A stretch of 64,000 bases of DNA from Candidatus Nitrosocosmicus franklandus (GTDB lineage Archaea; Thermoproteota; Nitrososphaeria; Nitrososphaerales; Nitrososphaeraceae), in contig NZ_LR216287.1 of NCBI RefSeq assembly GCF_900696045.1, forward strand, positions 2,275,854 through 2,339,853, in the 5' to 3' direction. Shown piece after piece: positions 3,360 to 43,483 of this stretch (its first letter is position 1; every line of letters starts with the position of its first letter). Under the pieces are notes generated by a model. That model did not search any database and was not told the origin of the DNA. It saw only the letters and a list, made by a program, of their open reading frames with translations. Made by a program: the position numbers and the translations under genes.

Positions 3360-3376
3360 GGCTCTGTTCAGTTAAC
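3360..3376 (+). repeat. Left terminal inverted repeat of the IS
   Basis: Seventeen bases, ggctctgttcagttaac, matching the right end with one mismatch. The transposase stop codon (TGA, complement of 3368-3370) lies inside this repeat. Confidence 0.93.
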
Positions 3377-3973
3377 ATGTTTTATTTCATTGTTATGATA
3401 GTCTACAAAGAGCCGCAGCCAATTCCGTACATGCTTTAACTTGCAGTTCTTTATTCTACAAGGAAAGTAATCATCGAAACTTTCGGTTCTATCCTTGATA
3501 TATTGCATCGTTCTTTCGATTACACTTTTCTCGTAAGAAGAATGAATATGGTGATCGAGTTTGAGAAACTGACAAGCCATGGGATACCAAGTCCCACCAT
3601 CTGTAGAAACTGGGTGCTTTCCATGAACTTTGATCAAATTAGAAAGATATCTTTCTGCAACAAACATGTTTCTCTCTTTGGATATAGAAAGTGCGAGGAT
3701 CTGTCTGTTTGCAGGCTCTATCGCCACCCAAAGCCAGATGTATTCTGACCCTACCTTCAACATTGTCTCGTCTACAATATATTCTAGAATTCTTCTTCTT
3801 GATGCTTTCAATTTTTGAGGCCTGTATTTTTGAATCCAATTCCAGATGGAGACATGGTTTCTTTTATACATCTGAGACAATCTTTCCGAGGCTTTTCTTA
3901 AAGATAAACCTGAAAAGTACAAATGTAAGCCATAATACACATACCTTGAAGGTGTTCTGTTTCTGCTAATCAT
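3368..3973 (-). CDS. IS6-family DDE transposase
   Basis: Cuts and joins the element's ends during replicative transposition. At 201 aa it is short compared with bacterial IS6 transposases and similar to archaeal ones. The N-terminus has a helix-turn-helix-like stretch (SLRKASERLSQMYKRNHVSI, residues 23-42). The catalytic triad can be read as D68 (YIVDET), D125 (VSTDGGTWY) and E153 (SVIERTMQYIKDR), with the usual K/R residues after the glutamate. The ATG start lies at 3971-3973 and the stop is inside the left inverted repeat, so the gene uses almost the whole element. No frameshift or internal stop is present, so it is probably active. Confidence 0.92.
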   Translation of the reverse strand: MISRNRTPSRYVYYGLHLYFSGLSLRKASERLSQMYKRNHVSIWNWIQKYRPQKLKASRRRILEYIVDETMLKVGSEYIWLWVAIEPANRQILALSISKERNMFVAERYLSNLIKVHGKHPVSTDGGTWYPMACQFLKLDHHIHSSYEKSVIERTMQYIKDRTESFDDYFPCRIKNCKLKHVRNWLRLFVDYHNNEIKHVN

Positions 3974-40749: not shown

Positions 40750-43179
40750 TCATCTCTGATAAAATACTCTAGTTACTGAATCGTAAGTCTTCTTTAGTAT
40801 CTCTAAATATCTTTTCTTGTCATAATTAGGGTTATTTTTATTAATTAATTCTATGGGTGTGGCTCTGTTTAAATAATTCTTACTATAAAAATCAGTAATG
40901 ATGTATTTTATCTGTTCTCCTGCATGTAAATGCGTTCCCCCTTCGGCTAATTTCTTTAGTACACAATTTTCTATAGTTTTTCTGTCCTCACAATCATTGC
41001 TGTTCTTCGATATTCTTTTCGTAAATATCAAATCGGTATAGTTAACTTTTCTAGAGATTAACAGACTCTTATATTTTTTATAGATTGTTTCTAAGTGTGG
41101 TATTTTCTTTATTATCTCATTAATATTTTCACAACCTGCCATAGTATTTACTAACTCTTGTTGAAAATTTATAAAAAACACGGGGGTGTCATGTCTTCTT
41201 GCCTCAATTCCTCGCATTTTTATGGTTCCATCATCAAATACTCCAAAATATCGATTTAGAGCCGGTAATGTGGGACTAGATTTTGAATAATCAAAAACAA
41301 TCCATTTGTAGACTCCTTCAAATGAGATTGAAAAATCTGTTAGTTCTTCTATTTCTGATTTTAAATCTTTCAGCCTTTTCTTCGAATATGCCATTTTCTT
41401 TACGTCTTTTATACTTGAAGTTTTAAGTTGAAGTTCTCTTTCTTTAACCCAAATTGAATCTACAATACCATGAATTATTTCAAATCCATGTCTTTCTGCA
41501 ATTTTTGACGTAATCGATAATAAATCTCTGGCAAAAGCACATACTGCTATATGCGCATCTATTCGTCCAAACTTTGAATTACTAAATCCTAAGTATCCAA
41601 AAGAGGTAACAAGAATCCATTTCAATGCTGTTTGTCTATTGTCATACCGATCTCTTAATTTCATATGACTGTCCGATTGATTGTTGCAATTATTTTTTCT
41701 GTATTTGTATTCTAAACGTCTGTCTAACACAGTTTTTAATGACAGTGGAACTATTCCTGTTCTTTTTTTACATATGTGATAAAGATGCTTTAATTCTGGA
41801 ACCCGATCTTTTGATTCCGATTCCGATTCCGATTCCGGATTACAGCAACTACAATTGATTGTATCAGAAGATATATTCTTTTTTAACATGATGTTTGGAT
41901 ATAATGATACAAAGTCAAATTCTGCTACATTGTCGTATGCTCCTGGTTTTGATTCAAAGATGGATCCTCCTTTGTCCGACTTTAATAAATCAGAGAACGA
42001 TTTAAATACTTCTGACGTGGTGGGCTTCCAAGGAATTAAAATATCATTTTTTTGGGCATTATAAAAATATAAACTACTAAGACATTTGCCTATTGTGGAT
42101 CTAGATGCTATTTGCATAGGTATTCTACATATTCTGCTTAACTCGGTCAATCCATCCAAACCGTTATCTTTGTAAATAAATGAGTTATTGATGTCAATAT
42201 GAGTTCTACCGTATAAGAAAAACGGCCGAGGTCTAAAATACACTCTGCCATAGGAGAAAAATGATGATGAAGAATTGGATCCACCTTCAGTATCTGTATT
42301 TAAAAATAATTTGTTCTTTTTTAAAATATATTCGATATTGGCTTCTCTGCTTAGATTTGCTAGTAATTGATTTTGAACTTTATTTACCTTGGCTCTATAT
42401 AATAGATGTGGGAATAGAAATTGATCGCCTCCCGTAGTAAGAATTATGTCCGGATCGATTCTATTAATCTCGTAAGCAAATTCTAATATCGTTTCCAATT
42501 CGTTTTCTTTAAATACATAAAATGCGTCCTTAATTGGGACATCATTATTAAAAACCAGAACTTTTATCTTTAAAATTTCATCTCTGATGTTATTCAATAT
42601 TGATCTTTTTTCTGAAATCAGTTCAAATGACAGAAACTTTAGCTCTGGTATAGCATATTCGAATGAATCGATATTGTCATTTTTGTCATTACTTATTTGA
42701 TATTCTTTAAATCCTTCTAAATTCTCCTCCGTATTACGTTCTATGTTGTATATCCCCATAGGATATAGTTCCTTTTCATATAAAAATGCCTGTTCAGGTG
42801 ATATATCCACATTGTATAAACGATAGTGTCCAAATCGGATAGAAAGTTTTTCAATTCTTTTTGCTAAATTTAATATATTAAATGAATCAGCCAAAGTTAA
42901 CTTTAAAACTTCTTTCTTATTTTTATGGTTGTTACTAATTGAAGGAGGATACTCGTATTTAGTTTCAAAATTATAACTTTTGATCATTGACAGGATTTTG
43001 TTGTCATCTAGTAATGCTAATAGGTCTTTTTTTAGATTCGATGCAACGTATATTGAAGGTGACCATGGATATTCTAATCTTTTTATGCCTCCTTTCTGCT
43101 TAATCCATAATACCATTTGATCTTTTATATGATGTATATCAAACAGCCAACCATTTACAGTAGGTCTCATTGTATTCAC
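40750..43179 (-). CDS. Family-B DNA polymerase with altered exonuclease and motif C residues
   Basis: 809 aa, the family-B length. Motif A is intact (D422 in FDFVSLYPNI) and motif B is recognisable (ALKWILVTSFGYLGFSN, 518-534). Motif C, normally YGDTDS, reads HGIVDS at 570-575, so the first metal-binding Asp is Ile and only D574 remains. The proofreading domain also looks degraded: Exo I is LSFELIS (183-189) instead of LxFDIET, and Exo II is ILTTGGDQFLFPHL, lacking the usual N and final D. It may be a translesion-type, regulatory or inactive paralogue of the replicative enzyme. A (gattcc)4 repeat encodes ESESESE between motifs A and B, near a CSCC cluster. Alternative start at Met4. Confidence 0.9.
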   Translation of the reverse strand: MNTMRPTVNGWLFDIHHIKDQMVLWIKQKGGIKRLEYPWSPSIYVASNLKKDLLALLDDNKILSMIKSYNFETKYEYPPSISNNHKNKKEVLKLTLADSFNILNLAKRIEKLSIRFGHYRLYNVDISPEQAFLYEKELYPMGIYNIERNTEENLEGFKEYQISNDKNDNIDSFEYAIPELKFLSFELISEKRSILNNIRDEILKIKVLVFNNDVPIKDAFYVFKENELETILEFAYEINRIDPDIILTTGGDQFLFPHLLYRAKVNKVQNQLLANLSREANIEYILKKNKLFLNTDTEGGSNSSSSFFSYGRVYFRPRPFFLYGRTHIDINNSFIYKDNGLDGLTELSRICRIPMQIASRSTIGKCLSSLYFYNAQKNDILIPWKPTTSEVFKSFSDLLKSDKGGSIFESKPGAYDNVAEFDFVSLYPNIMLKKNISSDTINCSCCNPESESESESKDRVPELKHLYHICKKRTGIVPLSLKTVLDRRLEYKYRKNNCNNQSDSHMKLRDRYDNRQTALKWILVTSFGYLGFSNSKFGRIDAHIAVCAFARDLLSITSKIAERHGFEIIHGIVDSIWVKERELQLKTSSIKDVKKMAYSKKRLKDLKSEIEELTDFSISFEGVYKWIVFDYSKSSPTLPALNRYFGVFDDGTIKMRGIEARRHDTPVFFINFQQELVNTMAGCENINEIIKKIPHLETIYKKYKSLLISRKVNYTDLIFTKRISKNSNDCEDRKTIENCVLKKLAEGGTHLHAGEQIKYIITDFYSKNYLNRATPIELINKNNPNYDKKRYLEILKKTYDSVTRVFYQR
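41813..41836. repeat. Hexanucleotide repeat (gattcc)x4 inside the polymerase gene
   Basis: Four perfect units encode alternating Glu-Ser in a loop between polymerase motifs A and B. Copy-number change would keep the frame. Confidence 0.85.
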
Positions 43180-43483
43180 CGAGTGTTAGTTTGCTTGGTA
43201 GTCGAAAAAACACCGTTTATCCAAGAAGAATAAATTAATTTGTATATCAAATTTTGATCGAGTTTTATTAGTGGGGTATTTTCGAATTTAATTTGATATT
43301 TCATTAGCATATTAATGAATGTTGTAACATGTTTATAACTATTACCATGTGTATTAATATCCTATACTGTATACTATAATGTTAATTCTGCAATTAGCAT
43401 TTAAATTGCATTTCGGTCACTCAAGATAACAAAAATAGTATCAATACAACCGATAGACATTTTTCTATCAATACAGAGGTCAT
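43180..43483. other. Divergent promoter region
   Basis: Separates the polymerase and the SIMPL protein. No gene recognised. Confidence 0.5.

Follow-up and report, generated by a model that had tools for sequence, protein, structure and literature searches.

The window, a stretch of 64,000 nucleotides from the genome of Candidatus Nitrosocosmicus franklandus (one contig, C1, of 2,836,447 bases), carries a gene of a family B DNA polymerase, polB2, at positions 40750..43179 on the minus strand (C1:2316603-2319032). The open reading frame has a GTG start and no internal stops and encodes a protein of 809 aa, full length as the initial annotation had stated, with Pfam matches to DNA_pol_B (4.4e-33) and DNA_pol_B_exo1 (5.2e-07). 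Its named relatives, with 78% and 77% identity, are encoded in MAGs of Candidatus Nitrosocosmicus. Upstream of the gene, on the same strand, are a leader ORF of 44 codons (43176..43310), a TATA box TTATAAA (43332..43338), and a palindrome-like promoter box ATACACATGGTAA (43342..43354).

Motif A, EFDFVSLYP (residues 420–428; 41896..41922, minus strand, as for all motifs below), with the catalytic D422, and motif B, RQTALKWILVTSFGYLG (515–531; 41587..41637), in the KWILVxSFGYLG form common to Dpo2, are both intact by alignment, in agreement with their functional appearance noted earlier. Motif C, HGIVDS (570–575; 41455..41472), is of the PolB2-type HxxxD form (H570, I572, D574): as had been noticed, one aspartate is missing, with I572 in place of the first Asp and the second one, D574, retained. 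A canonical DTDS was not found anywhere else in the 809-aa protein. The YxGG motif of PolB1 and PolB3 is replaced by a D(K/R) motif, D402-K403-G-G (41965..41976), the column of D402 being occupied by Tyr in PolB1/PolB3. The alteration of Exo I and Exo II was also borne out by alignment: the degenerate Exo I, FLSFELIS (182–189; 42613..42636), has E186 at the canonical Asp and I188 at the canonical Glu, and the degenerate Exo II, LTTGGDQFLFPHL (247–259; 42403..42441), has L255 at the catalytic Asp and G250 at the Asn. In Exo III, I330 stands in the canonical Asp column; this position is slightly ambiguous, with D329 adjacent. Two further features had been regarded as oddities. The Glu–Ser run is an incidental, species-specific 6-bp tandem repeat (GATTCC ×4.2; 41813..41837, minus strand), which is not conserved and was not seen in relatives. 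The C-S-C-C cluster (443–446; 41842..41853) is real but family-wide: C443, C445, C446, and also C470 do not vary among 20 members of the family. Structure prediction from three sequences (the window's, L033, and L034) gave a pLDDT of 31 and a pTM of 0.21 and was discarded.

The published marks of PolB2 are a single motif C Asp with a conserved His, the D(K/R) motif, and lost Exo I/III (PMC7544198, PMC8764526). In the alignment with PolB1, PolB2, and PolB3, the motif C and Exo columns of the 809-aa protein matched PolB2; the YGDTDS, DIE, and NGDDFD motifs of PolB1 and the YGDTDS, FDIEV, and FDWPYL motifs of PolB3 were absent from it. H570, I572, and D574 were invariant in an alignment of 20 proteins from families of Nitrososphaerales, where motif C reads H-(G/A)-I-(V/I)-D-S across the order. 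Among the H570-bearing sequences of a wider alignment, D574 was present in 43/43, D402 in 42/42 that could be scored, and the Exo II Asp in none; the middle position of motif C was I or L in these 43 sequences, with H and D invariant. Phylogenetic analysis placed the family of the 809-aa protein and Dpo2-type polymerases in one group (SH-aLRT 96), with DxD-type PolB2 next to it in a basal position (support 95) and PolB3 and PolB1 outside. The Dpo2-type references of the tree were assigned by operon context and motifs; their genes sit in PPB2(MGRT)-PolB2-iRadA operons. PMC11791011 likewise describes DxD-type PolB2 as branching basally. Judged by its motifs and its position in the tree, the 809-aa protein is an ordinary member of PolB2 (Dpo2-type). 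The initial annotation had taken the polymerase for anomalous; the altered residues are what defines PolB2, and none of them is peculiar to this gene. A known family accounts for the motif anomaly, and a false lead is removed.

Each of the 14 other genomes of the genus encodes a homologue. PolB2 is encoded by most of the Nitrososphaeraceae examined and also in several further families within the order, and profile matches extend to many more families of the phylum. A survey of 2014 lists PolB2 only for Crenarchaeota, Euryarchaeota, and one aigarchaeon (PMC4104785), and full-text literature searches brought up no publication dealing with PolB2 in Nitrososphaera or Nitrosocosmicus. Other Nitrososphaerales (L043–L047) have DxD-type PolB2 with decayed exonuclease motifs, and some genomes with this type, e.g., G022 and G035, also encode the HGIVDS type. 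A 1589-aa open frame matching B-family polymerase was observed in another genome (L076; G025 C1:2680.2-2685.0 kb). Horizontal transfer of polB2 was considered from its low synonymous divergence (pS of 0.44 to a neighbouring species, with most neighbours at 0.48–0.72 and PolB1 at 0.77) and rejected; this value is not exceptional because the pS of RadA is 0.41.

That the gene is a decaying pseudogene or a polymerase recently acquired with a mobile element (casposon or virus) has a negligible probability: PolB2 fragments with stops and other kinds of B-family polymerases do occur in the genus, but the frame is intact here, pairwise dN/dS of polB2 is about 0.15–0.30, the tree follows the order, and the gene is present in 14/14 other genomes of the genus. 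The dN/dS values and the conservation across the order also uphold the earlier view that the gene is under selection.

Dpo2 of Sulfolobus islandicus and S. solfataricus belongs to the same clade and shares the HxxxD, D(K/R), and KWILVxSFGYLG motifs and the absence of a usable exonuclease (PMC8764526, PMC7390963). It is a robust polymerase without exonuclease activity which extends mispaired and lesion-containing termini (PMC8764526), and it is damage-inducible and responsible for targeted mutagenesis (PMC7390963). By homology, the same function would be expected for the 809-aa protein, i.e., an exonuclease-free polymerase probably extending primers past DNA damage. The loss of proofreading and altered synthesis proposed in the initial annotation gain support from membership in PolB2 and from the published biochemistry of Dpo2 (PMC8764526). 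There are also differences: the Sulfolobaceae-type proteins compared have 541–596 aa vs. 809 aa in the polymerase of the window, and the latter has a fuller exonuclease-like domain and the CxCC...C cluster.

Catalysis would proceed through D422 and D574, and the missing first Asp would presumably be offset by H570, by D402 of the D(K/R) motif, or by both. The Asp of D(K/R) has been proposed to stand in for the missing motif C Asp (PMC7544198), and the first motif C Asp can be dispensed with as a metal ligand (PMC8764526). An older view of an inactivated PolB2, held in PMC4104785, would make the polymerase catalytically dead and retained as a scaffold or regulator, as the missing first Asp of motif C and the missing Exo residues might suggest. 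This is highly improbable, since D422, K520 of motif B, D574, and D402 are invariant in the family alignments, and purified Dpo2, whose motifs are in the same state, incorporates nucleotides as actively as the replicase Dpo1 (PMC8764526). Among the roles proposed earlier, translesion synthesis or a repair niche is supported by PolB2 membership and by the biochemistry and genetics of Dpo2 (PMC8764526, PMC7390963), while an inactive scaffold is not favoured. A second, canonical B-family polymerase and PolD, both of which the initial annotation suggested seeking, are present: PolB1 is encoded at C1:7774-9129, and the large subunit of PolD, as well as a Y-family polymerase, elsewhere in the genome.

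The published model has Dpo2 assembled with iRadA and a trimer of PPB2 (PMC11791011), and PolB2 of the window would likewise act within a PolB2-iRadA-PPB2 complex. All three families of this mutasome, as described in PMC11791011 and PMC4104785 (arCOG07300), are also encoded in this genome. Linkage to iRadA and PPB2 is usual for PolB2 in the literature, though not defining. Unlike in Sulfolobus, polB2 does not adjoin these genes, and neither was found beside it within the 64-kb window; the operon genes are not linked in this genome, while they are linked in the congeners G011, G005, and G004. The iRadA gene is located at C1:446.6 kb; its product (profile E 2e-16) has no Walker A motif (no GxxxxGK[ST]) and no significant Pfam match, so its assignment rests on the family profile and on synteny in relatives. 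A RadA-like protein of 200 aa encoded at C1:2376.1 kb (L057) was rejected as iRadA; it is RadB-like because its Walker A motif is intact (GERGSGKT). Its gene adjoins an Lsm-like gene.

Profile searches revealed PPB2-PPB2 fusions at C1:1437.4 and 2533.4 kb (E 6e-25 and 1e-19, respectively). The protein encoded at C1:1437.4 kb starts with MGRSIPSFR and contains two PPB2 domains, with E 3e-31 for the whole protein. In the PPB2 pair, one domain has the MGR(T/S) N-terminus and the other lacks it, which corresponds to the duplicated PPB2 in the available text of PMC11791011; the fused form is not named for the mutasome in that text. The arrangement differs from the published mutasome in the dispersal of the genes and in additional solo PPB2-PPB2 paralogues. 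The latter have the box promoter and no adjoining iRadA or PolB2 genes (C1:2533.4 kb, L175; L178/L179 in G013; L184 in G009).

In other Nitrososphaerales, the gene order is iRadA-PPB2(MGRTIPSFR)-PPB2b-PolB2. The same iRadA-PPB2-PPB2b-PolB2 order was found in the congener G004, where a DUF72 gene adjoins polB2; in G011 and G005, a fused PPB2 pair lies between iRadA and PolB2; in G006, iRadA adjoins PPB2-PPB2 and PolB2 is located elsewhere. G005 has two copies of PolB2. Decayed copies were found in G003 (iRadA, then PPB2 with stops, then a PolB2 fragment), in G010 (iRadA with damaged PPB2 and PolB2 fragments), and at the 1,437-kb locus of the genome under study, where a decayed iRadA precedes the intact PPB2-PPB2. 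These gene orders and reading frames demonstrate, at the level of sequence, the dispersal of mutasome genes and the presence of decayed copies. The ancestral state was probably a single iRadA-PPB2-PPB2b-PolB2 operon; in Nitrosocosmicus the two PPB2 genes would have fused and the operon would have been duplicated, complementary losses then leaving single genes at separate loci.

Comparison of upstream regions revealed a common promoter element at the separated mutasome genes: a 13-bp palindrome, WTACRCWGSGTAA, is followed by a TATA box and by an ATG at a constant distance of 44 nt from the start of the box. This layout fits leaderless transcription. The box at polB2 has one mismatch to WTACRCWGSGTAA, and its palindrome is weaker than those at iRadA or PPB2; no other box-like site of the window is accompanied by both a TATA box and an ATG at +44. 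The polB2 box of G008 has three mismatches. Three exact boxes are present in the genome of Ca. N. franklandus; one precedes iRadA and another the locus with decayed iRadA and PPB2-PPB2. In 15 genomes there were 54 exact sites (59 strand-wise matches vs. 10 for the reversed control), and 26 of the 54 preceded iRadA, PPB2, or PolB2 at a distance of at most 650 bp, with 0.06 expected; the genomes are related, and binomial figures for this enrichment overstate independence. The box was derived from five genomes, and enrichment was recounted in nine others, where 14 of 31 boxes preceded mutasome genes and none did after the sites were shifted by 2–5 kb. About half of the boxes precede other or no recognisable genes. 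The box was not found at PolB2 operons of other genera and is therefore, as far as seen, a trait of the genus.

The ATG of the leader ORF of polB2 lies 44 nt from the start of the box, and its stop codon, TGA, shares nucleotides with the GTG start of polB2 (minus strand). The leader ORF of polB2 in G003 matched the N-terminus of iRadA and the C-terminus of PPB2-PPB2, in operon order (each score was reached in 0 of 300 shuffles), and those in G009 and G013 matched the C-terminus of PPB2; apparently, the intervening genes were deleted, which brought polB2 next to the operon promoter. No match to iRadA or PPB2 could be detected for the leader ORF of the window, which was not accepted as a remnant of them, such remnants being confined to G003, G009, and G013; with the support from relatives, it is possibly a scar of deleted operon genes.

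These data suggest that the gene very probably encodes a bypass polymerase of the PolB2/Dpo2 type, whose partner genes were dispersed from one operon, each keeping the operon-type promoter; the separated genes are probably still expressed together. If, on the contrary, PolB2 had lost its partners and occupied a new niche, the distant iRadA- and PPB2-like genes would serve otherwise. The absence of both genes next to polB2 in the window, the activity of purified Sulfolobus Dpo2 alone, and the divergence of iRadA, far greater than that of PolB2 between species (47% vs. 79% identity with the nearest species, so that co-adaptation is not obvious), speak for it. It is nevertheless improbable, given that both partner families were matched in 15/15 genomes of the genus (some of the genes fragmented) and that the dispersed genes have a common promoter.

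The retention of dispersed genes with a common promoter makes a damage-responsive regulon plausible, with DNA damage as the trigger by analogy with Sulfolobus. Tentatively, a sequence-specific regulator may bind WTACRCWGSGTAA beside the TATA box and, when DNA is damaged, co-induce polB2, iRadA, PPB2-PPB2, and a few small proteins in an SOS-like manner, this dispersed regulon having arisen by operon duplication and complementary loss. Alternatively, the promoters could be alike merely as duplicates of a core promoter of common ancestry, with neither a dedicated regulator nor a regulon. The promoters of iRadA and polB2 are indeed similar well past the box (GTAATA-TTATAAACATGTT), as would follow from descent of both from one operon promoter. 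However, the promoters of PPB2-PPB2 paralogues have the box in common and little else, and the palindrome is the best-kept part of the element and also precedes unrelated genes; common ancestry without a regulator is thus somewhat unlikely. In Sulfolobus, damage regulation through an Orc1/Cdc6 homologue, as cited in PMC11791011, would likewise co-induce polB2, iRadA, and PPB2, whereas in Nitrosocosmicus the element is a palindrome of 13 bp that immediately precedes TATA. In bacteria, Pol V (UmuD'2C-RecA) and the polB2 operons associated with LexA similarly combine a damage polymerase, a RecA-family partner, and a palindromic operator; Pol V, however, is of a non-homologous polymerase family, and the LexA of the bacterial operons was not identified in Nitrosocosmicus.

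The scattering of mutasome genes in a soil ammonia-oxidising archaeon, with a very similar and precisely spaced promoter retained, is new here. It indicates that an operon of a protein complex can split with the promoter kept for each piece, intermediates being found among living species. The proposed regulon, if true, would be an SOS-like circuit new for ammonia-oxidising archaea, and the candidate operator sequence provides a handle for finding their damage-response regulator.

A protein of 130–175 aa, with perhaps a ribbon-helix-helix N-terminus and a C-terminal Cys/His motif, is encoded divergently from iRadA in many genomes (L071 3858-4328, L069, L070, L182, L185, and L188; C1:2564.6 kb in the genome under study). 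It belongs to a multi-copy family without a Pfam match and is a possible candidate for the regulator. In several genomes, the start of a conserved basic peptide of 32–34 aa (MNKKKQMIKLKIISRSPYLMGIRKRIRIHSEK) is 44 nt away from the same box (L256, L259, L262, L264, L247, and L271), and short leader ORFs resembling that of this peptide precede iRadA. At 3368-3973 of the window lies a short ORF resembling a transposase (of the DDE type, judged by eye), and a similar one occurs near the PolB2 operon in L036.
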